From assembly GCA_943787535.1 (NCBI GenBank), contig CALSMU010000013.1, forward strand, positions 142,529 through 206,528: a stretch of 64,000 bases of DNA. Reading direction: 5' to 3'. A program made the position numbers and the translations under genes. Below are positions 1,931 through 42,512 of this stretch, one piece after another. The notes below the pieces were generated by a model. It searched no databases. It worked only from the letters and a program-made list of their open reading frames with translations, and was not told where the DNA came from. The DNA is from an uncultured Flavobacteriales bacterium (GTDB lineage Bacteria > Bacteroidota > Bacteroidia > Flavobacteriales_D > Parvicellaceae). Each line of letters opens with the position of its first letter. The first letter of the stretch is position 1.

Positions 1931-3229
1931 ATGAAAGCTCCAGATAAAATAGGGTTTTGGCCCACCACTTCTTTAGTAGTAGGAAACATGATCGGTTCGG
2001 GTGTTTTTTTACTTCCAGTTGCATTAGCTTATTATGGATTGAACAGTGTTTTTGGTTGGCTCTTTTCTGCATTTGGAGCAATTTTATTGTCAATCATTTT
2101 CGGCTATTTAAGTAAGCATTTAAAAAATTCAGAAGGCGGTCCTTACGCCTTTACAGTATTCGGACTCGGGAGGTTTCCAGGCTATTTAGTTGCTTGGGGA
2201 TATTGGATTTCAATTTGGTCTACAAACGCTGCTATTGCAGTAGCTTTGGTAAGTTACCTGAGTGTAATATTTCCAATTGTTGGCGCTAGCGCTCTCAATT
2301 CTATTATTACCGGTTTAGCTTTTGTTTGGTTTTTTACATGGATAAATACCAAGCAAATAAAAACGATTGGAATTGTACAGCTTTTAACTACTGTTCTTAA
2401 AGTAGCTCCATTAATTTTTTTAGCAATCGTTGGAATTTTTTATGTGGAACTATCGAATTTAAAAATTTGGGCAGCAGAAGCTTCTGTTAGTTTTGAAAGC
2501 ATAACTGCAGCAACTACTTTGACTTTTTTCGCATTTCTCGGAATGGAAAGTGCTACAATTCCTTCAAAAGGAATCGCAAATGCAGAGCAAATCATAAAAA
2601 AAGCTACTATTTACGGAACCATTTTTACAGCAGCTCTTTACATCATTAGCTTTCTTGTAGTGTCAAGTATAATTCCGCCAGGAGCACTAAAGAATTCGAG
2701 TGCGCCATTTGCAGATACAGCCAATGAGTTATGGGGTGGAACAGGAAAGATGATCTTTGCTTGGGGTGCTGTTATTGCTTCGTTGGGAGCCTTAAATGGT
2801 TGGATCCTGATACAAGGAAGAATTCCCTACAGCGCAGCAAAAGACAATCTGTTCCCAAAAATATTTGCGAAGGTGAACAGAAATGATTCTCCTGTAATTG
2901 GAATAATAATCTCAAGCATATTGGCTTCTGCATTGATGATGTTGAATTATAGTAAATCCTTGGTTGATGCCTTTTCATTTATGATGAAACTCTCTACACT
3001 ATCAGTGCTCACGCCTTACCTTTTTTCTATCGCTACATTTTGGATAATGATTAATAAGGACAAGAAGAGTTTGAAAAACAAAGCCAATGTTCTTGTGGCA
3101 CTACTAGCGTTTATATTTTCTATTTGGGTAATAATTGGTTGTGGGCAAGAAGTTGTTTTTTATGGTTTTATTCTTTTAATGATTGGAATTCCTTTTTATA
3201 TTTATATAAATAATAGTAGTGATGATTAA
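1931..3229 (+). CDS. APC-superfamily amino acid/polyamine permease (AdiC-like)
   Basis: A 432-residue polytopic inner-membrane protein with about 12 hydrophobic segments. The first helix carries GNMIGSGVFLLP, the substrate-backbone motif of the basic amino acid/polyamine antiporter branch, and the sequence resembles the arginine:agmatine antiporter AdiC over its whole length (GGPYAF after helix 2, GMESATIPSKGI in helix 6). It should take up or exchange an amino acid or amine; the substrate cannot be fixed from sequence. Its last codons overlap the start of the Rieske oxygenase gene (3222), so it heads a translationally coupled operon that continues into the kinase/PLP fusion gene. That context suggests it imports the substrate of those enzymes. 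Confidence 0.85.
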   Translation: MKAPDKIGFWPTTSLVVGNMIGSGVFLLPVALAYYGLNSVFGWLFSAFGAILLSIIFGYLSKHLKNSEGGPYAFTVFGLGRFPGYLVAWGYWISIWSTNAAIAVALVSYLSVIFPIVGASALNSIITGLAFVWFFTWINTKQIKTIGIVQLLTTVLKVAPLIFLAIVGIFYVELSNLKIWAAEASVSFESITAATTLTFFAFLGMESATIPSKGIANAEQIIKKATIYGTIFTAALYIISFLVVSSIIPPGALKNSSAPFADTANELWGGTGKMIFAWGAVIASLGALNGWILIQGRIPYSAAKDNLFPKIFAKVNRNDSPVIGIIISSILASALMMLNYSKSLVDAFSFMMKLSTLSVLTPYLFSIATFWIMINKDKKSLKNKANVLVALLAFIFSIWVIIGCGQEVVFYGFILLMIGIPFYIYINNSSDD

Positions 3230-4318
3230 CGATTTGGAAATAAATGAAAATATTGAAGAGGCGGAAACTTTCCCAGCAACGTTTTACCAAAGTCAAGAGG
3301 TTTTCGATCTAATTCGAGAGCGTGTCTTTGTTCGCTGCTTGGCATTGGGTTGGGAATGGAAAAAGATTTATTGCCTTTTTCTGAATCTGTTTTTCCACTC
3401 ACTTTATTTGATGGGTACTTGGATGAGCCAATTGTGCTCGTTAAAAATGCGAAGGATGAAATTATAACATTAAGTAACGTTTGTACACACCGTGCCAATA
3501 TAGTTGTTGAACATGCAGGTAGGCAAAAGCAGTTAGCTTGCATGTATCATGGAAGAAGATACAATCTGGACGGAACTTTCAAAATGATGCCTGAATTTAG
3601 TGAAGCGAAAAACTTCCCGCGTCCATGTGATGATTTGCATTTATTTTCATCTTCCTTGTTTAAAGGGCATTTATTTTCAAGTTTAGATAAAGCATTTGAC
3701 TTTGAAAAAGTGACAAATGTGCTGCAAGAGCGAATAGGGTTTTTACCGCTGGAAGATTTTAAGTTGGATGAAACAATTTCAAAAGATTATTTGATTAATT
3801 GTAATTGGGCATTGTATTGCGACAATTACTTAGAAGGGTTTCATATTCCTTTTGTACATCCGGATTTAAATGATGCGCTCGATTATGGTAGCTATGAAAC
3901 GGTACTTTATGATTATTGTAATTTACAAATAGGGTATTCATCTGGTGGAGAAGAAGTGTTTGATTTACCTGAGGGTCACCCGGATTTTGGAAAACAAGTT
4001 GGTGCTTACTATTATTGGATTTTCCCTAATATGATGTTTAATTTTTACCCTTGGGGATTATCAATAAATATCGTAAAGCCTGTGTCAATAAATAGAACCA
4101 GAGTTTCTTTTGTCTCTTATGTGTATGATGAATCAAAGCTTTCTGCAGGTGCTGGAGCCTTGCTAGATAAAGTTGAAAGAGAAGATGAATATGTTGTAGA
4201 AGGTGTTCATAAGGGGCTTAAATCAAGGTTTTACAAAGCAGGTCGATTTTCTCCAACTAAAGAGAGAGGCGTTCATCATTTTCAGCGCTTATTATTGAGA
4301 TTTTTAAAAGAAAATTAA
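3222..4318 (+). CDS. Rieske non-heme iron oxygenase, alpha-subunit type (frameshifted)
   Basis: Three reading frames combine into one ~364-residue Rieske oxygenase. Frame 1 (from ATG 3222) gives the N-terminus through FYQSQEVFDLIRERVFVR. Bases 3337-3357 in the next frame give AWHWVGN. The third frame runs from about 3359 to the stop and gives the rest. In that last part, counted from a TTG at 3350, the [2Fe-2S] ligands are C45-x-H47 and C64-x2-H67, followed by the mononuclear iron motif DNYLEGFHIPFVHPD. This motif resembles choline/carnitine/betaine-type monooxygenases more than aromatic dioxygenases. The start overlaps the permease gene by eight bases. No reductase or ferredoxin gene is adjacent. 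The frame breaks may be sequencing errors or a real lesion. Confidence 0.82.
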
Positions 4319-4358
4319 GAATTAATTTGTTTTATTTTTTGATTAGCGAAGTGTAATT

Positions 4359-6641
4359 ATGACTGTTTTACAAGAGTTACTGCAATCTGAATTCAGTTTT
4401 GAAGCCATCGAGATAAAAAAAATTGGAGGCTACGACAATGCAAATTACAGCGTAATCGGTGATTCCAATAAATACATATTTAAAACATATGTGTTTAGCA
4501 AGGATGTGCTAGCTCACCTTGAAGCAGAAAACGAGGTTCTTTTAAGTTTGGAGTGCAACGACAAATGTTTGTTTCCTATTCCTAAAAAGTTTTCGGATGG
4601 GTCTTACTTGAAGTTGATGGAAATTGCTGGTGAACAGCATATTTGTAGAATGTTGAACTTTATCGATGAAAAATTCTTTGCGGAAGTTGACCATTCACAT
4701 GCGTTATTAACTTCTTTTGGTGGCTTTTTGGCAGGATTGAATTTACAACTTCAAAAAGCAACAAGTTATATACTTCAAGCACGCGAATGCGAATGGGATT
4801 TACAATACTATCATTTTAGTTTGGCGTACATTAAAGATATTCCAAATGCTCATGACAGGGGTATTGTTGAATATTTCTTTCAGCAGTTTGAAGCCCAAGT
4901 TTTACCGCGTATTTCTACGTTTCGTCGTCAAATAATTCATGGTGATTATAATGAAGGAAACGTTTTGGTAAAGAACAATCGAGTAGTGGGAGCTATCGAT
5001 TTTGGAGACCTTACTTACGCACCATTGGTTTATGAATTGGGAATAGCATTGGTTTATAGTTGTTACGATAAAGACAAGCCATTGGAGTGGATAGCTTCTA
5101 CTTTAAAAGGATACAATGCGATAATTCCGGTTGAAGAAAAAGAAGTCGAAATATTGTTTTATGTGATGGCTACCAGGCTTGCTGTTAGTGTATGTAGATC
5201 AGCGCATTCTAGAAAAAAAGATCCTGACAATGCGCATGCGTTAAATAGCGAAAAACATTCATGGAAGTTGTTGAAGTACTTATTGCGAATAGGTCCAATT
5301 GCTGTTGAGAAAATGTTGCGTGAAGTTTGCGAACTCCCAAAAAGAAAAGAGCTATTGGCAGAAGCAGAATTACAAAAACGCTTACAAGTTGTAAGTCCAC
5401 TCTTATCTGTCAGTTACAAAGATCCAATTGTAATGGAAAAAGCAGCTTTTCAATACATGTATGATAGTGCAGGAAATTCAATTTTGGATGCGTACAATAA
5501 TATACCACATGTAGGGCATTGTCATCCTAAAGTGTTTGCTGCTGGGCAGCAGCAAATGGCGGCTTTAAATACAAATACACGGTATTTATATCCGGAGTTA
5601 TCTAGCTATGCAGAACATTTGTTGTCTAAGTTTCCAAAATCACTTACTAAGGTGTTTTTTGTTAATTCTGGAAGTGCAGCAGCCGATTTAGCATACAGAA
5701 TGGCGTATGCGCATGCAAAAAGAAAAAGCGTTATGGTTATGGAACATGGTTATCATGGTAATACCCAAATCGGAATGCAAATGTCTGATTATAAGTTTAG
5801 TAATGAAAAGGGTGATGGAAAGCAAAATCATGTTTTAAAAGTGCCTATTCCTGATACTTACAGAGGAGTTTATGGAAGTGAAAACCCTAATTCAGGAATA
5901 AAATATGCCGAAGAGGCGATTGCTCAAATGAAAGAATTTGGGCTTAAAATAGGAGCATTTATAACAGAGCCAATAGTTGGTTGTGGAGGGCAGGTTCCGC
6001 TAGCTGCAGGTTATCTAAAAGCGCTATACCCAGCAATAAGAGCACAAGGAGGAGTTTGTATAAGTGACGAAGTTCAGACTGGTTTTGGTCGTTTAGGAGA
6101 TTTTTTTTGGGGGTATGAAGCGCATGGAGTTGTGCCTGATATTGTTATTTTGGGTAAGCCTATGGGTAATGGTCATCCGATGGGTGCTGTTGTAGTTACG
6201 GATGAAATTGCAGCATCTTTTGAGCAAGGCGTTGAGTTTTTTAGCTCGTTTGGAGGCAATCCGGTTTCTTGTGCAATTGGTAAAGCTGTTTTGGAGGTTA
6301 TAGAAGAAGAAAAACTCCAAGAAAATGCAAAAGACGTAGGCGATTATTACCAGTTACTTCTAAAAGAGTTACAAAGTCGGTATAATGTAATTGGCGATGT
6401 AAGAGGTTCGGGGTTATTTATTGGAGTAGAAATAGTTAAAGAAAATTCTAATGAACCCAACACAGCTCTGGCGCAGCATATCAAAAATGAATTGAGAAAT
6501 GCCAATATTTTGATAAGTACAGATGGGCCTTTCGATAATGTGCTTAAATCTAAGCCACCATTGTGTTTTTCTAAAGAAAATGCCAAAGAGGTGGTTAATT
6601 GTTTGGAAGGTGTTTTGTTGAATATAGAAATAAAAAATTAA
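4359..6641 (+). CDS. APH-family kinase fused to class III PLP aminotransferase/phospho-lyase
   Basis: A 760-residue two-domain enzyme. Residues ~1-330 are an aminoglycoside phosphotransferase/homoserine-kinase-like fold, with catalytic loop HGDYNEGN at 194-201 and metal-binding DFGD at 214-217. Residues ~345-760 are a class III PLP enzyme with cofactor aspartate in ISDEVQTGFG (D570) and Schiff-base lysine K600 in LGKPMGNGHP. The same two activities occur as separate human enzymes: hydroxylysine kinase, and the phospho-lyases acting on phosphoethanolamine or 5-phosphohydroxylysine. By inference the fusion phosphorylates an amino alcohol and then eliminates phosphate and ammonia. It lies 40 bases after the Rieske gene in the same operon. 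True transamination is an alternative for the PLP domain. Confidence 0.88.
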   Translation: MTVLQELLQSEFSFEAIEIKKIGGYDNANYSVIGDSNKYIFKTYVFSKDVLAHLEAENEVLLSLECNDKCLFPIPKKFSDGSYLKLMEIAGEQHICRMLNFIDEKFFAEVDHSHALLTSFGGFLAGLNLQLQKATSYILQARECEWDLQYYHFSLAYIKDIPNAHDRGIVEYFFQQFEAQVLPRISTFRRQIIHGDYNEGNVLVKNNRVVGAIDFGDLTYAPLVYELGIALVYSCYDKDKPLEWIASTLKGYNAIIPVEEKEVEILFYVMATRLAVSVCRSAHSRKKDPDNAHALNSEKHSWKLLKYLLRIGPIAVEKMLREVCELPKRKELLAEAELQKRLQVVSPLLSVSYKDPIVMEKAAFQYMYDSAGNSILDAYNNIPHVGHCHPKVFAAGQQQMAALNTNTRYLYPELSSYAEHLLSKFPKSLTKVFFVNSGSAAADLAYRMAYAHAKRKSVMVMEHGYHGNTQIGMQMSDYKFSNEKGDGKQNHVLKVPIPDTYRGVYGSENPNSGIKYAEEAIAQMKEFGLKIGAFITEPIVGCGGQVPLAAGYLKALYPAIRAQGGVCISDEVQTGFGRLGDFFWGYEAHGVVPDIVILGKPMGNGHPMGAVVVTDEIAASFEQGVEFFSSFGGNPVSCAIGKAVLEVIEEEKLQENAKDVGDYYQLLLKELQSRYNVIGDVRGSGLFIGVEIVKENSNEPNTALAQHIKNELRNANILISTDGPFDNVLKSKPPLCFSKENAKEVVNCLEGVLLNIEIKN

Positions 6642-6914: not shown

Positions 6915-9266
6915 ATGAAAAAGCTAAAACTACTCTGTTCAATACTTTTTTCTGGAATCACTTCTTTTGTCCTATCTCAACCAACACATGTATGGCAATC
7001 CAACCAAACAGGAACATGGTCTACGTCGTCTATTTGGGATGTGTCGGGTAGCGCATCTGGAGCACCACCAGCCACCCTTAACAGCGATTATCGGGTAACC
7101 ATTGCGTCAGGAGATACGGTAACGCTCTCTTCAGCACAGCTGCAGGTGAAATCTGGTGCGGATCTTTTTGTTTATGGTTATCTAATTGTGGATCATGTTG
7201 ATGGTTTAGAGTTTTTCAATGGATCTACAGTTACAATTTATTCAGGAGGAACATTACAATGCACTTCAGGTGAAGTTAGAAATAATGCCGTAGGAACACA
7301 GGTAAACGGAACGTTATTGTGTACAGGAGATTTTTCGGCTGGAAATGGTTCTTCTATTTCAGGAACGGGAACAATGAATGTTGAAGGTGATCTAACTATT
7401 TCTGGTACAGCGACGGTTATGGGTAATGGAGATAACTGTACTAGCTGTGAACTAACTACAGCAGGATATACTTACGTGTTTTATGTTGCAACCACAGGAG
7501 ATAACTCAAATACAGGTAAGAGTTCATCCGATCCTTTTTTAACAATAGCGAAAGCTATTACAGAAATATCATCGCAAGCGGATGATGGAAGAATAGAAAT
7601 TGCAGACGGGACATACGATGAAAGTGCTGCTGATTTAACTGTAGCTTATTCCACTTACTTTGAGGGGACCTCCAAAGCAGGAACAATAATCAATAATATA
7701 AATAATATGACAATAGATGCATCACAGACGTTAACTATTTCGAATGCATCCGTTACCTCTACAGGAACGACTGATGTTAATGGAACACTTTTAATGGATG
7801 GAGCAGGGTTGTATGATGCAGATGGTACTTTTGATGCTACAGGTGGAAATTTAACATTTTCAGGCGATGGAGAATTATCATGCGCAAATACTGTAACTAG
7901 TTTGGGGACCTTTACGCCGAGCACTGGAACCGTCACCTACGATGGAGGCGCTCAAAATGTTCTAACAGAAACTTACAATCACTTATCAATTTCAGCTGCC
8001 GGTACCAAAACTGCCACAGGAAACCTCGATGTTAATGGAAATTTGACAACCGCCGCAACTGCTTCTTGTGTTTTGGATCTCTCCTCGCATGACCTAAATG
8101 TTGCTGGAAACATTACTATTGGTGCCACAGATGGGTTAGATTTGTCAGACGCATCGTGTTTGCTAACCATTGATGGTGGTGCGGGAGATCAAACAATTAC
8201 ACATGCGGGTAATACGGGTTCTGAATTATCGGCAGTTACATTGAATAAAGCTGCGGGTAATGCTGTATTGGCCTCTGCTGTTGAGCTAGATGGTTCTTTA
8301 ACTTTAACGTCTGGAGATATAGATGCAAGTGCCAATAACTTAACGCTAACGAGTGTTGCAACATCTTCAGCTGGAAGTGATGCTTCGCACATAATTGGAA
8401 CGATGGTAAAAACCACTGCAGCAACCTCAGATTTCACTTTTCCTCTTGGCGATGGAAGCCAGTATAAAGCAATAACAATTACACCTTCTTCAGGAAGCTC
8501 TACTGTTTGGACAGCTGAATACTTTCTACAAGCAAATACGCCTATTGCGACAACTTTAGATGGATCTGCAGCAGGTGATTTAGATCATGTAAGTACATAT
8601 GAATATTGGGATTTAGATAGAAGTGGATCTGCAAATGCAAAAATTGCAATTCCATGGGTAGCAGCCAATGCAGTCCTAGCCCCTGCTGATTTACGACTTG
8701 CTCATTTTGATGGAGATTGGGATTTGATTGAAGCTACACCTGTCGGGGTTGAAGCTTCAGGGGTTATTACTTCATCAGGAGCAGAAGAATATGTGTCGAC
8801 TTTCAGCCCTTTTACTTTAGGAAGTAGTTCATCCACAAACGTTTTACCAATAGAGCTAGTATCTTTTTCTGGTGAGAAAAAAGACAACAAAAACATACTG
8901 AATTGGACAACGGCAAGTGAAATCAACAATGCATTTTTCACAATAGAGAAGTCTTATAATGGAATAGACTTCGAGTGGGTTGGAAGGCAAGAAGGAACCT
9001 CACCTTCTATACAAATTGTAAATTACAGTTTCACGGATTACAACATTCTCAAAACGATTAATTATTACCGCTTAAAACAAACAGATTTTGATGGAAAGTC
9101 TGAGTATTCGAGCACGATAAGTATCGACAACAGAATTGATTATTCTTTTAAAGAAATAATCGGTAGAAGGAATCTATTGGGGCAAGAGGTAGATGAATTT
9201 TACAACGGCATTGTTATTGTCAATTACAAAGACGGTACTTCCGAAAAGTTCTATCAGTTTAAGTAA
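6915..9266 (+). CDS. Large modular secreted beta-repeat protein with C-terminal sorting-type region
   Basis: 783 residues with a Sec signal peptide (~1-21). The middle is rich in Thr, Ser, Gly and Asn and forms repeated beta-strand units typical of right-handed beta-helix surface proteins. One stretch (DNSNTGKSSSDPFLTIAKA, then IADGTYDES) resembles pectin-lyase-fold repeats. The last ~110 residues begin LPIELVSFSGEKK and hold the ILNWTTASEINN block common in T9SS-exported Bacteroidota proteins, ending in a basic beta-hairpin tail rather than the usual PNP-type motif. No enzymatic residues are evident, so a structural or adhesive surface role is inferred. The gene at 9609 is a paralogue: bases 8803-9266 align without gaps to 13261-13724. 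Confidence 0.8.
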   Translation: MKKLKLLCSILFSGITSFVLSQPTHVWQSNQTGTWSTSSIWDVSGSASGAPPATLNSDYRVTIASGDTVTLSSAQLQVKSGADLFVYGYLIVDHVDGLEFFNGSTVTIYSGGTLQCTSGEVRNNAVGTQVNGTLLCTGDFSAGNGSSISGTGTMNVEGDLTISGTATVMGNGDNCTSCELTTAGYTYVFYVATTGDNSNTGKSSSDPFLTIAKAITEISSQADDGRIEIADGTYDESAADLTVAYSTYFEGTSKAGTIINNINNMTIDASQTLTISNASVTSTGTTDVNGTLLMDGAGLYDADGTFDATGGNLTFSGDGELSCANTVTSLGTFTPSTGTVTYDGGAQNVLTETYNHLSISAAGTKTATGNLDVNGNLTTAATASCVLDLSSHDLNVAGNITIGATDGLDLSDASCLLTIDGGAGDQTITHAGNTGSELSAVTLNKAAGNAVLASAVELDGSLTLTSGDIDASANNLTLTSVATSSAGSDASHIIGTMVKTTAATSDFTFPLGDGSQYKAITITPSSGSSTVWTAEYFLQANTPIATTLDGSAAGDLDHVSTYEYWDLDRSGSANAKIAIPWVAANAVLAPADLRLAHFDGDWDLIEATPVGVEASGVITSSGAEEYVSTFSPFTLGSSSSTNVLPIELVSFSGEKKDNKNILNWTTASEINNAFFTIEKSYNGIDFEWVGRQEGTSPSIQIVNYSFTDYNILKTINYYRLKQTDFDGKSEYSSTISIDNRIDYSFKEIIGRRNLLGQEVDEFYNGIVIVNYKDGTSEKFYQFK
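8803..9266 (+). repeat. Direct paralogous repeat, first copy (matches 13261-13724)
   Basis: These 464 bases align without gaps to 13261-13724 (offset 4458), both ending at the stop codon. Differences are mostly at third codon positions. Shorter conserved blocks upstream also match, for example around 8297 against 12729. This marks an old tandem duplication of the C-terminal coding region. Confidence 0.8.
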
Positions 9267-9538
9267 TGTTTAAAGCAATTGGCGCAGATTTTTAATTTCT
9301 GGGGCATTTTTTTGCAAGCACCTTTTTTTTGAAGATCTATCACGCTCATAACCAGCTTTTTTTAGGGTGATACGAAAAGTGTTGATTATTTTTTTCTAAT
9401 TACGCTCGATTTTGAAAAGCATTTTTTTACAGATAAGCAACTGGGATAAGCAACGTTTTTAAGTTTTATTCGTCATTGAGTATAAATGTAATAGCTAGAG
9501 TTAATCTGTAAAGCGGGAATTCACTAACTACTGGTTTT

Positions 9539-9571
9539 TTTGATTTTAGATTAAATAAATGCTTATATTTG
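9539..9571 (+). promoter_or_regulatory. Bacteroidota-type promoter upstream of the second paralogue
   Basis: A -33 TTTG at 9539-9542, a 21-base spacer and TATATTTG at 9564-9571 match the TTTG/TAnnTTTG promoter pattern. It lies 37 bases before the ATG at 9609. The rest of the 342-base spacer 9267-9608 is T-rich and shows no further feature I can name. Confidence 0.6.
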
Positions 9572-9608
9572 TTCATAAATTGCTAATTAATACTTTAACC
9601 TAATCATT

Positions 9609-12600
9609 ATGAATCTTAAATTCGACCACAAAATACCTAGCTTACTTTTTGTGATGCTGTTATCGTTGTCTTCAGTTAGTTATGGCCAACTATCCTATTC
9701 TTGTGATATGGGGAGTGGAGCTGGTGAGTGTGGAAGAGATTGGGATATCAATGGGTTTGCTGATGGTACCTCATACTCTGGTGGATGTGCCGGTAACGGT
9801 CTTTATGATAATGTTTGGTCAGGCAACACTGCCGTTGAAGCATATTCTGGTGCAGCAATAACAGGGCATACAGGGGGTTCAATTATTTTAGATTTCCAAA
9901 CTAAGTTGAGAGATTACTACTCTCCTTACACAGATAATGCATCTACGCAATGGGGTACTTTAAAAGTTTATTGGAAGGCATCTACTCCTTCAGCTGGTGC
10001 TCCTGGAACGCAAATAGGCTCTGATATTACATCTGCAACAGACTGTCAAGTGCATACGATTAACTTTGATCCTGGTGGTACAGTAACCAATCTCTATATA
10101 ATGTTTGTTTACACTCTTGGTTCCGGTGATAATTGGATAATTTTTGATAATGTAAATCTTACAGAGGTTACATGTGCTGAGCCAACCTTACCAACTTCTT
10201 CTTCAATAACTTCTACTGAGGCAACAATCTCCTGGACGGCACCTGGTTCGCCTCCAAGCAATGGTTATGATTATTATTATTCTACATCATCTACTACACC
10301 AGATAACGCTACTACTCCATCAGGTTCTGTTGCGGCTGGAGTGGTCACAGATAACTTATCTGGATTAACTCCAGGTTTTACTTATTATTATTGGGTAAGG
10401 TCAAATTGCGGGTCTGGAGATTCTATCTGATTGGACTTCTGGAGGTACTTTTACAACTCTTGAAGCTGTTTCCTACAATTACCTCTTTTACTCCTTCCAG
10501 CGGATGTCCAAGTCTTGCTGAAGTTGTAGTTACGGGTACCAACTTTGGAGGAGTTACTGACGGTATGACTATAGGTGGAACTGCTGTTACTTCATTCACG
10601 GTTGATAGTGACACCCAGATTACAGCTACGGTAGGTACCGGAACGGACGGTGTTATATATGTACAGAATCACTGCGGGTAATGCTTCGAGTTCTGGTTCA
10701 TTTACGTTTACTACAACTACTGCTTCTATATACCACTAACCCGAACTACTGACTAGATATTGTTGCAGGAAATGTCTGATGTTATTTCAGTTGTTGCTGC
10801 AGATGTTTCAAGCTACCAATGGCAGTATAGCGTAACTGGTTCCAGCGGTTGGTCCGATATTGTTGATGGTACGCCAGCCAATGTTACTTATTCTGGTGCT
10901 ACTACTGCTGATCTATCAATCCAGCCGAATACCTCTGTTGCTGGTGCTACGGGATATTATAAATGTGTTGTGACAATGTGGGGATGTTTCTTCGAACAAT
11001 CGGCAAGTTACTTTTGTTCAGTATTGTGATCAGCTGGAGGAGTATCTTCGGGTATTACGGGTGTAAGCTTTTGGTACAATAGATAATACCATCTGGTAAT
11101 TCCAGTTTGACCTGCTATTCTGATTTTTACCCTGACTATCAAGAACAGTTTTTAAGAGATTCTCCTACGACTTTAAATGTTTATCGTATGACACAGATGG
11201 TCACATATACCAATTATCAAACAGCTTGGATTGATTGGGATGGCAGTGGAACTTTCGATGTTGATGAAGAATATGATTTAGGTACTGTTACTTCGGTTCA
11301 AGTGGCTTGTGCTAGCTCTGTGTCCTAAGTCCATAACAGTTCCTGCGGATGCTGTTGAAGGAAATATTCGGATGCGAATCTCTTGAGGTCTTGGTATCAG
11401 CTTAGTGTCATCATCCACTTATGGAGAGGTGGAAGATTATCGATTGGTAGTTAGGTTTCCAAACTATATGGGATGGTGACAACAGGTACTGATTGGCATA
11501 CCGCTGCTAATTGGATCAGGTGGTGAACTTGCCGACTACCCTTTCTGATAGTTGAATATACCAGAGTTCTGCTGCTAACCAGCCGGAAGTAACTCAGGCT
11601 GTTACAATAGCAAGTCTTAAAGATTGATCCAGGTATACCTGTTACATTGTCTGCAGGTTCGCTAAATGTTTTGGGTGATTATATTAAGTGCTAGTGATGT
11701 GTTTATTGGTAAATCAACAGTTGAATGTAGATGGTGATTTTGACGGGGCAGCGGGTACTATTACGATGACGAATGCTGACGCAAACCTTGAGCTAGGTTC
11801 TACGGTTACGGGCTTAGGTGGCATCAACTCTGATATGGGCACAGTAACCTACGATGGTGCCACACAAGATGTTGTAGCTGGCACCTACAATAATTTATCA
11901 ATAGCAAGTGCTGGTGTGAAAACAGCATTAGGTACTCTAACGCTGAATGGAAACTTAACAACCGCGGCAACTAATGGCAACCGATTAGATATGGGGGCTA
12001 ACCCGCTTAATGTGGCTGGAGACTTTAACAGTGGGTGCTCAAAATGGTTTGGACTTAACAGATGCCAGTGCATTGCTAACGTTGAACGGTACATTAGATC
12101 AATCCATTACGCATCCAGGAAATGCAACTGCTGCAGCAGGTGCAACGGTGACTGAAGATTTTGACTACTGCTAGCTACTTTTCAGACCACTGATAACTCT
12201 GGATCATATGATGCCTGGGTTGGGGCATCAACACCTACTGGTAATACTGGTCCTAGCAGCGGTTATTTAGGTGTTGGCGATTTCGCTTATTTCGATGGTG
12301 CCGGTGGTATTACTGGCGAGACCAATTTTATATCGAGAGACTCTTTGATTTTTCACCTTATAATAGTCCGCAAATTTCATACTATTATCATATGTATGGT
12401 GCAGACATGGGTTCTCTAGCTCTGCAGGTTAATACAGGCGGGGGTTGGACATCACTTTGGTCTGTATCAGGACAGCAACAAGGAGCTGAAGGATCGGCTT
12501 GGAAGCAAAATAGCGTGGATTTGTCAGCTTATGCAGGCGAGGCGAGTTGCCAGATTAGATTCTTTGCTACACGTGGGGCTGGAAATTTTCTCTGATATAG

Positions 12601-13724
12601 CTTTGGATGATATTGTAGTTTCTGATTTGGTGGGTGCTATTACCGGTAATTTTGAGTTTGTCAATTTAACAGTTAATAAATCTGGAGGTAATGTTGTATT
12701 GGCTTCTGCTGTGGAGATGGATGGTGCTTTAACTTTAACGTCTGGAGATATAGATGCTAGCGCATTTGATTTAACGCTTTCAACGAATGCAACAGCTTCA
12801 GCTGGTAGTGATGCTTCGCACGTTATTGGAACGATGGTAAAAACCACTGCAGCTATTTCCAAATTTACCTTCCCTCTTGGCGATGGAACGTACTATAAGT
12901 CAATTGCTATTACACCTTCAACAGGAACCTCTAATGTTTGGACAGCTCAATATAATAATACAGCGCATCCTACTCCAGGCGACCAAACTAGTGGTTTAGA
13001 TGACTCTGGAACCAATGGAACTACAACATCTGGTGATATAGATCACATTAGCACATATGAATGGTGGGATTTAGACAACGGTGGTTCTTCTGAGACTGCA
13101 ATAATTGAAATGGCATGGGTATCGCAAAATGCAGTCTCGGTCTATGCTGATTTAAGGATTGCGCATTTTGATGGAACAGATTGGGATAAAATTCCCAACA
13201 ATGCCCCTTCAGGTGATAACACAGCAGGTACATTGACTTCTTCCTCTGCGGTAAGCTCTTTCAGCCCTTTTACTTTAGGAAGTAGTTCATCTACAAATGT
13301 TTTACCAATCGAATTAGTATCTTTTACTGGAGAGAAAAAAGACAACCGAAACATATTGAATTGGACCACTGCAAGTGAAATTAATAACGCATACTTTACA
13401 GTAGAAAAATCCTACAATGGAATTGACTTTGAATGGGTAGGAACGCAAGAAGGTTCTTCTCCTTCTACGCAAATTATAAACTATAGTTTGTCTGATTACA
13501 ATATTCTAGAAACACTAAACTATTATCGTTTGAAACAAACTGATTTTGATGGGAAATTTGAATATTCAAAAACAATTAGTATAGACAATAGAGTTGATAA
13601 TTCATTCAAAGAAATAATCGGAAGAACAAATCTGTTGGGACAAGAGGTTGATGAGTTTTATAATGGAATTGTAATTGTTCGTTACAAAGATGGTACTTCT
13701 CAAAAGTTCTATCAGTTTAAGTAA
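9609..13724 (+). pseudogene. Large modular secreted protein (FN3, IPT/TIG, Ig-like, GEVED, MAM-like), many frame breaks
   Basis: The N-terminus (signal peptide, 9609-10430) and C-terminus (about 12595-13724) are clean, but the middle is split into short open stretches in changing frames. Read frame by frame it gives one ordered protein of ~1370 residues: signal peptide, FN3-like domain (~10170-10430, continuing SDWTSGGTF after a shift), IPT/TIG-like domain (~10480-10680), Ig-like domain (~10780-11020), GEVED domain (11150-11460; AWIDWDGSGTFD, then YGEVEDYRLV), beta-repeat region (11640-12110), MAM-like domain (12180-12620), then the same repeat and sorting-type end as the neighbour at 6915. 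I count at least ten shifts between 10.42 and 12.60 kb. Poor consensus over a repetitive stretch or real decay are both possible; I favour the former. Confidence 0.7.
13261..13724 (+). repeat. Direct paralogous repeat, second copy (matches 8803-9266)
   Basis: Second copy of the gapless 464-base repeat that encodes the LPIELVSF block and the basic C-terminal hairpin. Confidence 0.8.
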
Positions 13725-13814: not shown

Positions 13815-14921
13815 ATGAATTATATTTTCTTTTTCAGTTCTTCTTTTTTCTTGTTTCTAGTAAATACATCTGTTTACGCTCAATGCAATGGAAGCGTGGA
13901 TAATTGCGGAAAGCAATACAACCAAGTTGCTTATTTAACAACACACAATGCTTATAATACGGATTCAGAAGGTTTCTCACTACCCAATCAACATTTGGGA
14001 ATTGCCGATCAGCTGAACCAAGGAGTAAGAGCTTTTATGTTGGATGTTTATGATTTTTTTGGTACACCAACGCAATACCACGGTAGTGCCCTTTTGGGAA
14101 CACAGGCATTATCTTCTGATTTAGATGAGCTAAAAAACTTTTTGGATGCCAATTCGAATGAAATTGTAACGCTTATTTTAGAATGCTACGTTTCAGCAGA
14201 TGACATTGAATCTGAGTTAATCAATGCTGGTTTGATGCCGTATGTTTATACCCATGTAAATGGCAATGCTTGGCCCACATTGCAAGAAATGATTAATCTT
14301 AATAAACGATTGGTTGTATTTTCGGATGTTGCCGATGCATCCGCTTCTCAAGGTTGGTACCATTATGTTTGGGACTTTGCCGTGGAAACCCATTATTCTG
14401 TTAATAATGTGAATGATTTTACAGATGACTATAATAGAGGGGACTCGTTGAATGATTTATTTATATTTAATCATTTTGTCACCAATTCTTTAAGCGGAAC
14501 AGGTATGGATGCCGAATCGGCTATCGCAAATGAATACAATTTTTTATTAAACAGAATAGAATTGAACAATCTATTAAAGGCTAAGTTTCCCAATTTTATT
14601 ACTGTAGATTTTTTTGAATTAGGCAATGCCTTGGATGTGGTAAATACGCTTAACGCAGGTTATTTGGGGCTGCATCATTCTCTCAAAAATCCAGAAATAC
14701 TGGTGGGACCCAATCCAGCAAATAACTTTATCCAGTTGAATGTTCCAAATAATGCTGCATTTTCGGTAGTTATGTCCAACTTAAAAGGACAAGCAGTATT
14801 TACAAAGACAAATGCTTTTGGCGGGTTAAAAATTAATACAGCCGATTTTCTAAAAGGGTTATATTTATTGAAGATAAAACAGGGTCAATATACAATTTTT
14901 AAGAAGATAGTATTGCTTTAA
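13815..14921 (+). CDS. Secreted PLC-like phosphodiesterase (PI-PLC X domain) with T9SS sorting domain
   Basis: 368 residues. A signal peptide (~1-22) is followed by a PI-PLC X-type TIM-barrel domain (~30-285): LTTHNAYNTD carries the first catalytic histidine (H44) and QYHGSALLG the second (H89), as in bacterial phosphatidylinositol phospholipases. The family cleaves the phosphodiester bond of phosphoinositides or related glycerophosphodiesters by acid-base catalysis. Residues ~295-368 form a T9SS type A sorting domain starting VGPNPANNF and ending KGLYLLKIKQG plus a short tail, so the enzyme should cross the outer membrane. Substrate cannot be read from sequence. It stands alone after a strong terminator. 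Confidence 0.82.
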   Translation: MNYIFFFSSSFFLFLVNTSVYAQCNGSVDNCGKQYNQVAYLTTHNAYNTDSEGFSLPNQHLGIADQLNQGVRAFMLDVYDFFGTPTQYHGSALLGTQALSSDLDELKNFLDANSNEIVTLILECYVSADDIESELINAGLMPYVYTHVNGNAWPTLQEMINLNKRLVVFSDVADASASQGWYHYVWDFAVETHYSVNNVNDFTDDYNRGDSLNDLFIFNHFVTNSLSGTGMDAESAIANEYNFLLNRIELNNLLKAKFPNFITVDFFELGNALDVVNTLNAGYLGLHHSLKNPEILVGPNPANNFIQLNVPNNAAFSVVMSNLKGQAVFTKTNAFGGLKINTADFLKGLYLLKIKQGQYTIFKKIVLL

Positions 14922-17645: not shown

Positions 17646-19003
17646 TTACTTTCCAATACAGAAATTAGCAAAGATATTCCCCAACAACTCATCTGTAGAA
17701 ATTTCTCCTGTTATAGTTCCTAAGTGATGTAAGGCTTGTCGAATATCCATAGCTACGAAGTCGCCAGATAGGCCGGTGTCGATGCCGTCAATTACTTTTT
17801 GAAGATCTTCATTTGTTCGAATTAGCGATTCGTAATGCCGCGCATTGGTAACGATAGTGCTTTCAAGGTTAAAACCTTCTTCAACAACAGTATTGTACAA
17901 TGCAGATTTAACTTCCTCAATTCCTTCTTTTTTAAGCGCAGAAACGAAGAATTGCATCTTTCAATGTACTTGGTCTGGGATAAGATCTGCTTTATTGGCA
18001 ATAACTAACAATAGAAGCGTTTTGATTCAACGTGCGCTAAATCTTTTTCTACTTCTTTGGCAGTAGTGCTGTTTACATCGTATAAATAAACAACAATTGC
18101 AGATTGGTTTATTTTTTCAAAAGTTCTTTCAATCCCTAACTTTTCAATGGTGTCTTTCGCTTCGCGAATTCCAGCAGTGTCAATTAAGTTAAATTCAAGA
18201 CCGTTAATGGTTAGAGATTCCTCTAATGTATCTCTGGTAGTTCCAGGAATGGCAGAAACAATGGCTCTTTCTTCATTTAGTAAGCCGTTTAATAAAGTAG
18301 ATTTACCCGCATTAGGTCTTCCTACAATAACGGTTTGAACGCCGTTTTTAATAGCGTTACCTAATTTGAATGATTGTGCTAATTTGTTCACGTGCTCAAT
18401 AACTTCACTTACTAATTTGTGCAATTCAGTTCTATCTGCAAACTCCACATCTTCTTCTGAGAAATCCAACTCTAGTTCAATCATGGAAGCAAAGTGAATT
18501 AGCTTTTCACGTAACACTTTTAGGTCGTTCGAAAAACCACCGCGCATCTGATTCATTGCCACTTGGTGAGCTGCTGATGAGGTAGAGTGAATCAAATCTG
18601 CAATGGCTTCCGTTTGCGAAAGATCCATTTTACCGTTAAAAAAGGCGCGTTTAGAAAACTCACCAGCTTTGGCCATGGTAGCACCGTTTTGTAAAAGCAA
18701 TTCTATAATCGATTGTTGAATAAATGTAGACCCATGACAAGCAATTTCAACTATGTTCTCTCCTGTAAAAGATTTCGGGCCTTTGAAGATAGTTGCGATT
18801 ACATCGTCAATCGCTTTTTCTTCATTCTTGATAGAACCGTAATGCACGGAGTAACCATTAGCATTCAAAATGTCTTTATCAAAAACCTTGTTGGTAATCG
18901 TTATTGCATCGTTACCCGATAATCGGATTAATGCAATTGCACTCACCCCGGGGGGAGTAGATAATGCTACTATAGTTGATCTGTCTAAAAGGTTTTCTTG
19001 CAC
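17646..19003 (-). CDS. mnmE: tRNA modification GTPase MnmE (frame-broken)
   Basis: Two open segments (GTG 19003 to 18005, and 17957 to 17646) together give a ~452-residue MnmE, the family's normal length. MnmE with MnmG installs the carboxymethylaminomethyl group on U34 of tRNAs. N-terminal formyl-THF-binding domain: TIVALSTPPGVSAIALIRLSG. GTPase motifs: GRPNAGKS, AIPGTTRD, DTAG, then NKAD, which falls in the broken stretch. The C-terminus is the hallmark FCIGK. Near 18013-18020 the frame shifts by one (SKRFYC to LLLLVIANKADL), and an in-frame TGA follows at about 17961-17963 before KMQFFVSAL. The start must be the GTG at 19003, since no other start codon precedes the conserved region. The lesions are probably consensus errors. 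Confidence 0.9.
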
Positions 19004-40201: not shown

Positions 40202-41410
40202 ATGAAAAAAATATTATTACCAATAGCAATATTAATAGGTGGATTGACTTTTGGTCAAAATGTTCAAGACCAGAAAGTTTCATTTAAGTATGTCCAATTA
40301 CCAACGAATCCAATACCAAAGGACATTTCAAATTATAATTTGGTTGTAGATATTTCTGGCTATGCAAAAAGTAATGAAGATTCCATGTCTGTATATCAAA
40401 ACAGGCTATCTACTTTTGAAGCAGAATTCGAAACGTGGTTAGAAGATAAAAAGCGAGTAGATAAGCTGTACCTAATGGAGTTAGCTAAGTGGGAAAGGGC
40501 AGTAAATGCAACTGTTTCACCTGCTGTGGCACCAGTTATGCCGATAAAACCTCCATATTCTAAGCAACCTATTAAAGAAGATATAAAACTTCCTTTATTA
40601 ACAGAGGATGTTACTGAAGCGCAAACAAATGGATTAATTAACCTTGAGGGATATACAAAAGGTGAGGGTGGAGCTGTTGTAACATTAGAAATATTAGGTT
40701 TTCAAAATGCGAGCATTTCTGTGAAAAAAACTGGTACGGGTGCAGCAACTAAGTATACATATACAAGTTCTTGCAAAATGCCAGTCAAGGTAACTATAGA
40801 AGCTCCAGGATCAGGTATAATTCTTTCAGAAACGGTTAATGATAATCTACAAACATCAGTAATTAAGTCATATGATAACCAATATGAGCACAAACTATGG
40901 TTGATTGATAACTACGACACTTTTTGGGCTCAGAAACAAAAATCAATGTTGACTGCTTCTTTTAAGTCGGTAAATGCAATAATTAATGATAAATGTGGGT
41001 ATCCGAAGAAAACGCGTTCTACAGAAATCTACACTGTTAAAAAGCATAAAGGGCATGATTATACAGATTTGATTGATGCTTATACAAATGTAAAATCTGG
41101 ATACGATTTACTTTTTAAGGATGTTGACAGAACAAGTGCAATTGGTAAAATTCAAACTGGAATAGAAATTTGGGAGGATGCTCTAGAAGAAACTAACCCT
41201 TTTTATAATAAAGATAGGGTTAATAAAAAAGTAACTGCATTATTATATGCTAATTTAGCTGAAGCTTATATGTGGATAAATGATTTTGATTCTGCGGACA
41301 ATTATCTTCAAAAGGCGAAGATTGGAGGTGTTTTAAAGTACAAGAACTTTGCTAAGAGATTGCAGGGTGTATTAAATGGATTGAAAGCTAGATATGAAGT
41401 AAACAACTAA
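40202..41410 (+). CDS. Secreted protein of unknown function
   Basis: 402 residues with a signal peptide (~1-18). Residues ~60-130 are charged and helical with a Pro-rich turn (PVMPIKPPY), ~140-220 look beta-rich, and ~285-400 are helical and resemble TPR-like repeats (LYANLAEAYMWINDFDSADNYLQKA). No catalytic motif is recognised; a periplasmic scaffold or outer-membrane-associated role is plausible. It is monocistronic with a strong terminator 23 bases downstream. Confidence 0.72.
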   Translation: MKKILLPIAILIGGLTFGQNVQDQKVSFKYVQLPTNPIPKDISNYNLVVDISGYAKSNEDSMSVYQNRLSTFEAEFETWLEDKKRVDKLYLMELAKWERAVNATVSPAVAPVMPIKPPYSKQPIKEDIKLPLLTEDVTEAQTNGLINLEGYTKGEGGAVVTLEILGFQNASISVKKTGTGAATKYTYTSSCKMPVKVTIEAPGSGIILSETVNDNLQTSVIKSYDNQYEHKLWLIDNYDTFWAQKQKSMLTASFKSVNAIINDKCGYPKKTRSTEIYTVKKHKGHDYTDLIDAYTNVKSGYDLLFKDVDRTSAIGKIQTGIEIWEDALEETNPFYNKDRVNKKVTALLYANLAEAYMWINDFDSADNYLQKAKIGGVLKYKNFAKRLQGVLNGLKARYEVNN

Positions 41411-41537: not shown

Positions 41538-42512
41538 ATGTCAATATTTACAAATATGAGTCGGGTAGTTTTAATCGAAAATAATTCAGAAATTGGTGCT
41601 GGTACTAGAGGTGCAAGTCTTGGTGTAGATGCATTAAGGATAGCCGCTTTTAATAGTAATAGTGATTATTTTAACAGATATACACTTGAAAAAATTGAAA
41701 ATGAAAATCATCGATTATTTGAGGAGATAGACTTCCCAAGTGCAAAGAGAATGGAAGATGTATTTAAAGTCTTTAATAGGATTTGTAATAAGGTTGATGA
41801 AACACTTCAAAAGAATAGATTTCCATTGATATTAGCAGGAGATCATTCAAGTGCTGGAGGAACTATTGCTGGGATCAAAAAATCGAATCCCGATAAACGC
41901 CTAGGAGTAATATGGATTGATGCACATGCAGATTTACACTCTCCATACACTTCTCCCTCTGGTAACATGCATGGTATGCCTTTGGCTACTGCCTTAAATT
42001 TTGATAATATAGATCATAAAATAAAAGAATTAGAACCAGAAGTAATTGAAACTTGGAAGAAATTGAAAAATGTTGGCGGCGTAGCACCCAAAATTAATCC
42101 AGAAGATTTGGTTTTTATAGGAGTAAGAGATACAGAAGAATCAGAAGATTATTTTATTGCCAATAATTCTATTCATAGCGTTAGTGTAGAGTATGTTAGA
42201 AGGAATGGTGTCGAAAAAGTATCTGCCGAAGTACTTGATTACCTTAGAGAATGCGATATTCTTTATCTTTCGTTCGATGTTGATAGTATGGACTGCGATT
42301 TAGTTTCTTATGGAACAGGCACACCCGTGTCGAATGGAATTACGGAACAGGAGGCGAGTGGATTAATCAATCATTTTCTTATTGACAAAAGAGTAGGTTG
42401 TTTTGAAGTTGTTGAAATTAATCCTTGTTTGGATAACAAACAAAATAAAATGGCTGAGACAGCTTTCCGGATTTTAGAGAATGCTACCTCAATCATTGAA
42501 AAAAGAGGATAA
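41538..42512 (+). CDS. Arginase/agmatinase-family ureohydrolase, probably arginase
   Basis: 324 residues. The binuclear manganese site is complete: GDHSSAGGT, WIDAHADLH, and SFDVDSMD, followed by EINPCLD. Extra loops relative to the compact agmatinases (for example MHGMPLATALN and the KELEPEVIETWKKL helix) match the arginase branch of Bacteroidota, which converts L-arginine to ornithine and urea. Agmatinase cannot be excluded, since an arginine decarboxylase is encoded at 54833. The start is read as ATG 41538; a second ATG six codons later is nearer the conserved region. argS follows 54 bases downstream. Confidence 0.86.
   Translation: MSIFTNMSRVVLIENNSEIGAGTRGASLGVDALRIAAFNSNSDYFNRYTLEKIENENHRLFEEIDFPSAKRMEDVFKVFNRICNKVDETLQKNRFPLILAGDHSSAGGTIAGIKKSNPDKRLGVIWIDAHADLHSPYTSPSGNMHGMPLATALNFDNIDHKIKELEPEVIETWKKLKNVGGVAPKINPEDLVFIGVRDTEESEDYFIANNSIHSVSVEYVRRNGVEKVSAEVLDYLRECDILYLSFDVDSMDCDLVSYGTGTPVSNGITEQEASGLINHFLIDKRVGCFEVVEINPCLDNKQNKMAETAFRILENATSIIEKRG

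Follow-up and report, generated by a model that had tools for sequence, protein, structure and literature searches.

Three genes for a permease, a Rieske oxygenase and a kinase/PLP fusion protein are arranged head to tail in a stretch of 64,000 nucleotides from an uncultured Flavobacteriales bacterium, here called the window. Do these genes serve a single purpose and, if so, on which kind of compound would their products act? In window coordinates, the relevant features are:

1931..3229, + strand: AdiC-type APC permease gene, 432 aa, predicted cationic amino acid/amine importer or exchanger (from Pfam, NCBIfam, PDB and site residues)
3222..4318, + strand: Rieske non-haem iron oxygenase alpha-subunit gene, group Va-like; frame broken at about 3336-3348, intact in the congeneric loci L002 and L003
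3222 to about 3336 and 3350-4318, + strand: open parts of the Rieske gene
4359..6641, + strand: fusion gene, 760 aa, APH-type kinase (residues about 1-325) and class III PLP phospho-lyase-like enzyme (about 338-757)
4938..4961, + strand: kinase catalytic motif HGDYNEGN, residues 194-201
6156..6158, + strand: codon for K600, the PLP-binding lysine, which all 22 aligned sequences share

The three genes are real. An earlier note, made from the sequence alone, had described them as coupled, and the coordinates, the 8-base overlap of the Rieske start (3222) with the permease end (3229) and the 40-base gap (4319-4358) before the fusion all stand. The Rieske gene as one open frame does not. The frame starting at 3222 runs as MINDLEINENIEEAET...FVRC before it is lost, the remainder (322 aa) being open in another frame from 3350. 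In L002 and L003 the gene reads through (365-366 aa), the window being two bases longer in the broken stretch, and in a third congener, G001, the N-terminal 180 codons are open as far as the contig end. The remaining part is under strongly purifying selection (dN/dS 0.03 and 0.06), and mnmE in the same window is likewise frame-broken. Therefore, the break is more probably an error of the assembly than the mark of an old pseudogene.

Pfam profile matches bear out the families that had been proposed for the permease, the Rieske protein, the kinase and the PLP enzyme. The permease matches AA_permease_2 with 162 bits and AdiC in the PDB (3ncy) with 227 bits; on the NCBIfam AdiC model it obtains 285 bits, below the cut-off of 574, and so does not reach the curated AdiC equivalog score. 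AdiC residues Y93, N101, E208, W293 and F350 are kept, and W202 is replaced by F. It is these site residues, not the curated score, that argue for an AdiC-like working of the permease. Basic amino acid/AdiC models give 282-285 bits against 43 bits for the ethanolamine permease model, and the protein also scores on a polyamine/basic amino acid antiporter subfamily.

The Rieske gene matches the Pfam families Rieske (46 bits) and Ring_hydroxyl_A (97 bits). Its cluster ligands C86, H88, C105 and H108 are invariant in 25 sequences. The 2-His-1-Asp iron site (H206, H211, D320) is present in 76 of 76 rows of an alignment of 75 of the 81 loci plus P0123, the same protein as the L003 row; six partial proteins shorter than 340 aa were left out. 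By these ligands it belongs to the alpha subunits of Rieske non-haem iron oxygenases. According to PMC7948474, an aromatic residue at CntA position 203 marks the group Va quaternary-ammonium oxygenases, to which the choline enzymes belong. Of the 76 rows, 68 have Y and 8 have F at this position, and all have the bridging Glu (CntA 205). None of the 76 has the Cys-X-X-Cys pair that flanks the iron in group V members; they carry G, and I or V, instead. PMC10952381 assigns the pair to 'some Group V' members, so that its absence alone does not exclude membership. The CntA carboxylate contact Tyr295 is not kept (F in 74 rows, Y in 2); CntA 295 and 319 are placed one residue apart by the HMMER and MAFFT alignments, of which MAFFT was followed. 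Since the AlphaFold models are of middling quality (mean pLDDT 72.8 and 72.7) and weak round the iron site (195-210), no pocket geometry is claimed from them. Judged by its residues, the active site looks like the quaternary-ammonium type and, together with the partner permease, would be better suited to a cationic amino acid, possibly a quaternary-ammonium one, than to an aromatic ring. Homologues are named choline monooxygenase (several, at JGI) or aromatic ring-hydroxylating dioxygenase in the databases. Among the matches listed, plasmid records hold Rieske relatives of at most 33% and fusion relatives of at most 42% identity. As had been remarked before, no reductase gene adjoins the Rieske gene; two NAD_binding_1 matches lie elsewhere in the genome.

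The fusion matches APH (77 bits, residues 23-253) and Aminotran_3 (273 bits, 356-752). HGDYNEGN at 194-201, DFGD at 214-217 and K600 all occur where they had been reported, and K42, D196, N201, D214, D217, D570 and K600 are invariant in a 22-sequence alignment that includes the window. The kinase half has the HxDxxxxN catalytic loop, the DxxD metal motif and the ATP-site Lys of APH-type kinases. Against the PDB, the PLP half yields 400 bits with 6tor and 307 bits with 5g4i, the next match being at 197. The suggestion that it is of the phospho-lyase type is thus upheld at the level of sequence, as it appears closer to these known phospho-lyases than to transaminases.

Conservation of the neighbourhood in relatives had been named by the earlier note as a test of its own proposal, a linear pathway. 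Permease, Rieske gene and fusion were seen together in the window's genus only, which by that test would count against such a pathway. It is the pairs that recur, so the claimed coupling holds for permease-Rieske and Rieske-fusion and fails for the whole trio outside the genus. Of the 81 Rieske loci, 28, spread over nine families, have an AdiC-like permease next to the Rieske gene, and the fusion adjoins this gene in a second family too (genus g16), there without permease; trees place the fusion-Rieske associations of the two genera apart. In g16 both genes share a strand; 46-58 bases separate them in L143 and L254, and in L139 and L255 they are separated by one gene, whose product (c15) has no Pfam match. 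Other neighbours include an HMA-MauE gene downstream of the Rieske gene in family f9 and, at five loci in other families, a DDAH/arginine-deiminase-family gene beside the permease (one of the five was scanned).

Genome-wide, 36 of 44 fusion genomes are without such a Rieske gene, some of these absences possibly being gaps, as the genomes carry no completeness figures and some are small; three of the 44 (L051-L053) hold a longer kind of protein. The Rieske product is therefore hardly an obligatory substrate of the fusion. Within the order, 45 of 55 Rieske genomes have no fusion match at E 1e-90, and the Rieske gene occurs in 10 of 19 fusion-positive genomes versus 55 among all 299 (hypergeometric 5e-4, without correction for relatedness). 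It is present in 8 of the 44 fusion genomes, against a background of 40 in 395 genomes phylum-wide (binomial 0.07) and of 55 in 299 order-wide (binomial 0.58), and co-occurrence as proof of a linear pathway was thus not obtained outside the order sample. Around stand-alone fusions no neighbour is shared by more than 6 of the 66 loci fetched, many contigs being short.

A piperidine-6-carboxylate (P6C) dehydrogenase exceeds its cut-off in 264 of the 299 order genomes. Being near universal it was ruled out as a discriminating partner and does not single out a semialdehyde route. Two linked genomes, G239 and G287, gave no match at E 1e-120, and a third, G146, gave a partial one. When the search was loosened, G146 showed a piece that begins at base 3 of a contig and G287 one of 190 positions; in G239, where fusion and Rieske gene are paired, no match exceeded 226 bits. 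None of five aldehyde dehydrogenases scanned (eight PF00171 places) reached the betaine-aldehyde or acetaldehyde dehydrogenase cut-offs. The lysine aminotransferase model TIGR03251 found no match over the 299 genomes, with the controls silent too. Two window genes score as arginine decarboxylase (below cut-off) and arginase (above cut-off).

Our preferred reading, tentative at a probability of roughly 0.3, is one unit for the uptake and breakdown of modified basic amino acids of two substrate classes. The AdiC-type permease would bring in lysine-like compounds. The Rieske protein, fed by a reductase encoded elsewhere, would hold the cationic nitrogen against Tyr201 (P0123 numbering; CntA Tyr203) and oxidise the adjacent carbon, thereby breaking the C-N bond in analogy to carnitine monooxygenase; trimethyllysine, for example, would yield trimethylamine and 2-aminoadipate semialdehyde. 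The kinase half would phosphorylate 5-hydroxylysine, or a similar amino alcohol, at its hydroxyl group, the PLP half would eliminate phosphate and ammonia to give the same semialdehyde, and the P6C dehydrogenase of the genome would then oxidise it. Because the two branches would be parallel and meet at the semialdehyde, each enzyme may also live without the other. Several observations count against this reading: the fusion-Rieske link without permease in g16 suits a direct pathway from enzyme to enzyme equally well or even better, among solved structures it is an ethanolamine-phosphate enzyme to which the PLP half is most closely related, the Cys-X-X-Cys pair is absent throughout, the DDAH/arginine-deiminase-family genes point to arginine-like compounds, and the P6C dehydrogenase match in G239 is poor.

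The linear pathway of the earlier note, in which a plain basic amine or amino acid (lysine, ornithine, putrescine) is imported, hydroxylated by the Rieske enzyme at the carbon next to the aminomethyl carbon, phosphorylated, and freed of phosphate and ammonia to leave an aldehyde, is possible but doubtful. Its gene coupling and families hold, fusion and Rieske genes are neighbours in two separate lineages, one without permease, the Rieske pocket may be roomier than that of CntA, and a C-hydroxylase is known to be a Rieske protein. However, the obligatory order is weakened by the 36 of 44 and 45 of 55 genomes with one enzyme alone, a single transamination of the unactivated amine would presumably give the same aldehyde and save ATP and NADH, and no step needs the quaternary-ammonium-type site to which the group Va aromatic residue and bridging Glu point. 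That the genes are loose neighbours, with permease and Rieske gene as one unit beside which the fusion, a housekeeping enzyme that acts alone, has come to lie by chance in one genus, is unlikely: the restriction of the trio to that genus and the lack of widely recurring fusion neighbours would agree with it, but not the separate same-strand linkage in another family (46-58 bases at two loci and one intervening gene at two others, against 40 bases in the window), nor the enrichment in the order sample.

Catabolism of phospholipid head groups appears distinctly unlikely. Here the Rieske protein would be a choline monooxygenase and the fusion an ethanolamine kinase with ethanolamine-phosphate phospho-lyase, kept together since choline and ethanolamine both come from lipids. 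The JGI names (some fusions are called ethanolamine-phosphate phospho-lyase), the place of choline enzymes in group Va given in PMC7948474 and the closeness of the PLP half to human ETNPPL speak for it; the AdiC-type permease with its low score on the ethanolamine permease model, the five scanned aldehyde dehydrogenases below both cut-offs and the arginine-type hydrolase family genes beside the permease in other families speak against it. Very unlikely in our view is a salvage operon for lysines that are methylated and hydroxylated in biomineral and structural proteins. Epsilon-trimethyl-delta-hydroxylysine is, according to PMC4557024, a diatom cell-wall amino acid also found phosphorylated. 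The permease would import this compound and its kin, and the group Va-like Rieske enzyme would strip the quaternary nitrogen in the way CntA acts on the matching -CH(OH)-CH2-N(CH3)3 head of carnitine, or remove its methyl groups; the fused kinase/phospho-lyase would finish the hydroxylysine. Least probable of all is polyamine turnover or tailoring, in which the Rieske enzyme makes a hydroxylated polyamine (compare 2-hydroxyputrescine formation) and the fusion removes it or its overflow. The antiporter subfamily score and the arginine decarboxylase- and arginase-like genes of the window would suit this, but none of the neighbours recurring in the 81 loci was recognised as a polyamine gene, few of these neighbours having been scanned.

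No title among the open-licence papers searched describes the permease-Rieske-fusion set, and no paper there joins hydroxylysine, phospho-lyase and Rieske, or putrescine 2-hydroxylase and Rieske; within the papers searched, the gene set is not described. A recurrent transporter-oxygenase pair is now named in Bacteroidota, along with a bacterial setting for the kinase and phospho-lyase chemistry of animal hydroxylysine and ethanolamine, here united in a single protein and linked with an oxygenase. Should the substrate be a methylated lysine, environmental bacteria would have a route to release trimethylamine and nitrogen from modified proteins. The salvage operon, if true, would amount to a new oxygenase-plus-ammoniophospholyase route and a new use of modified protein nitrogen by Bacteroidota.

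Among known systems, the arginine/agmatine antiporter AdiC (3ncy) shares N101, W293, E208, Y93 and F350 with the permease, which differs from it by F for W202, by a score below the curated cut-off and by its link to an oxygenase gene. The carnitine monooxygenase CntA (group Va; 6y9c, 6y9d, 6zgp) is 21-22% identical to the Rieske protein in structural alignments; its Cys206/Cys209 pair is Gly and Ile/Val in the Rieske rows, F258 is A/G, Y295 is F (74 rows) and F319 is V/T/I, and the gene described here has no adjacent reductase gene and other neighbours. The kinase-PLP proteins of NCBIfam PRK06148 and PRK06149 match the fusion with 767 and 534 bits, in two stretches each, but their models have 1015 and 972 positions against 760 aa, and the fusion stays below their cut-offs (1128 and 973). 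The Arthrobacter phospholyase A1RDF1 (5g4i) is a class III PLP phospholyase like the PLP half (304-307 bits, 31% identity), with the match over the PLP part and a solved chain (446 aa) without a kinase half. Human hydroxylysine kinase reportedly belongs together with the ammoniophospholyases PHYKPL and ETNPPL. These are enzymes of the same kinds, and the PLP half is 39% identical to ETNPPL (6tor), the one of them compared by sequence; in the window, the two activities would be joined in one bacterial polypeptide.

Three genes of the window, which covers positions 142529-206528 of contig C13 in a source genome of 3.15 Mb and 25 contigs, were assigned with Pfam and NCBIfam models:

1931-3229, plus strand: APC permease of the AdiC (arginine/agmatine antiporter)/basic amino acid antiporter kind
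from 3222, plus strand: Rieske/Ring_hydroxyl_A oxygenase gene
4359-6641, plus strand: APH kinase fused to a class III PLP enzyme, 760 codons (the fusion)

The closest relatives of the fusion protein, uncultured Flavobacteriales among them, are 87–93% identical. The Rieske gene described in the earlier note is present but not open over its whole length: the frame starting at 3222 breaks off near 3336-3348, with the other 322 codons open in a different frame. In two genomes of the same genus, L002 and L003, the gene reads through with 365–366 codons, and compared with these the window has two extra bases in the stretch of the break. In a further congener (G001), which has the permease upstream, the N-terminal part is open as far as the contig end. 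The remaining Rieske sequence is under strong constraint (dN/dS 0.03 against L003, 0.06 against L002), as are the permease (0.08–0.09) and the fusion (0.13–0.14). The mnmE gene (17649-19000, minus strand), whole in L002, is likewise divided over two frames in the window, with the joint near 17954-18011, which suggests indel errors in this assembly. Since the congeners are intact, the rest of the Rieske gene is constrained and mnmE is broken alike, an assembly error is the likelier cause of the frame break.

Downstream, at 6915-13724, lie large repeat-like ORFs with similar C-terminal ends (8856-9263 and 13314-13721), their order and breaks varying among the window, L002 and L003. They are followed at 13815-14921 by a PI-PLC-X domain protein with a Por secretion-system sorting tail, judged by its domains likely a secreted phospholipase-like enzyme. 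In L003 (3480-5128) and also in L002 an aminotransferase class IV gene overlaps a sulfotransferase gene (Sulfotransfer_5), a relative of which is also found near the fusion in L039 and L048.

How far the neighbourhood is conserved in relatives, on which the earlier note had made its pathway depend, differs with the gene from which it is viewed. Around 66 fusion loci from public genomes (up to 10 kb per side, many contigs being shorter), Rieske gene and permease were found only in the two congeners (tblastn, E 1e-8), and no further gene recurred in more than six of these 66 flanks. Taken alone, this would refute the pathway by the earlier note's own test; the Rieske side gives a different picture. 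A search at E 1e-60 places the Rieske gene in 55 of 299 order genomes and 40 of 395 genomes of the phylum. We inspected 81 loci, mainly the best-scoring matches and including several whose contig stops close to the Rieske gene; in 28 of them the adjacent gene, no more than 600 bases away, encodes an AdiC-like permease. It is located on the same strand upstream, in most cases abutting or overlapping the Rieske gene, or divergently at 50–79 bases, or downstream (three loci), and these 28 loci cover nine families (f1, f9, f15, f17, f18, f19, f35, f42, f56). In three more loci a different APC permease lies 5 bases upstream (that of L150 was scanned). Six loci of f9, genus g47 (L130, L131, L132, L133, L135, L136; scanned in L130), have an HMA–MauE domain gene directly 3' of the Rieske gene, which may point to metal or redox handling.

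The 26 upstream or divergent permeases, including that of the window, form a coherent set. With regard to positions which we take to line the AdiC substrate site, N101, E208 and W293 are kept in all 26, Y93 in 25 and F350 in 24, while W202 is replaced by F or Y; five other members of the permease cluster mostly differ at these sites. An arginine deiminase/DDAH-family gene follows the AdiC-like permease in L228, L229, L230 and L232 (scanned in the last); L165 has one beside its permease together with a gene for the citrulline hydrolase CtlX (scanned). This fits basic amino acids as permease substrates.

The fusion lies within two genes of the Rieske gene in six of the 81 loci (L002, L003, L139, L143, L254, L255); a seventh, L141, has a broken fusion copy. 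Apart from the two congeners, all of these are from genus g16 (family f8), where the fusion precedes the Rieske gene, the reverse of the window, with one gene between them in L139 and L255. In an IQ-TREE phylogeny of 77 Rieske proteins the window genus (g1) and g16 form separate clades, each with full support. In a quick tree of 58 fusion proteins the g1 sequences join first Algoriphagus (aLRT 93, not starred) and next Aquimarina (92), whereas those of g16 make up a clade of their own (99) nested inside another (95). Because the trees part the two groups and the gene order is reversed, the simplest reading is that the genes were associated separately in the two lineages. The unnamed intervening g16 protein, c15 (L139:6839-8005), has a 402-aa relative in the window (40202-41410; 28% identity, 182 bits), after which comes an arginase gene (41538-42512).

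Within the order sample, 10 of the 19 fusion-positive genomes hold the Rieske gene, compared with 55 of 299 overall (hypergeometric 5e-4, uncorrected for relatedness; in four of the 19 the match is confined to the PLP part of a longer protein, about 1000 aa in length). Both are adjacent or one gene apart in eight of these ten: the window, G002, G003, G146, G239, G241, G261 (fusion broken) and G287. Among 44 further fusion genomes, three with the longer protein, eight have the Rieske gene at E 1e-60; in the available flanks, at most 1.5 kb long, none of the eight shows the fusion and one shows the permease. Incomplete genomes may lie behind some absences. Each gene thus also occurs independently of the others, an argument against the kinase depending strictly on the oxygenase.

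The same separate occurrence weighs on the linear pathway of the earlier note, in which the Rieske product is fed to the kinase and then to the PLP half. Furthermore, from an unactivated amine a single transaminase would give the end aldehyde for less energy; a Rieske enzyme of the group Va make is needed for a quaternary nitrogen, where transamination cannot work. We regard this pathway as rather unlikely and retain it because g16 couples the two enzymes without a permease. The likeliest reading, with substrates that we infer, is that both enzymes handle modified basic amino acids in parallel: one permease would bring these in for Rieske enzyme and fusion, which would act side by side, their products joining at one semialdehyde. 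Electrons for the Rieske enzyme would come from a 353-aa FAD-NAD-Fer2 reductase on contig C10, one of two NAD_binding_1 proteins of the genome (the second, on C6, is presumably NqrF), or from another protein not seen. Aminoadipate semialdehyde would be oxidised by piperidine-6-carboxylate dehydrogenase, which is present above its cut-off and near universal in the order. The directly assayable question is the substrate of the coupled enzymes. Their families are known, and the coupling of their genes is real, recurrent and undescribed in the open-licence papers searched.
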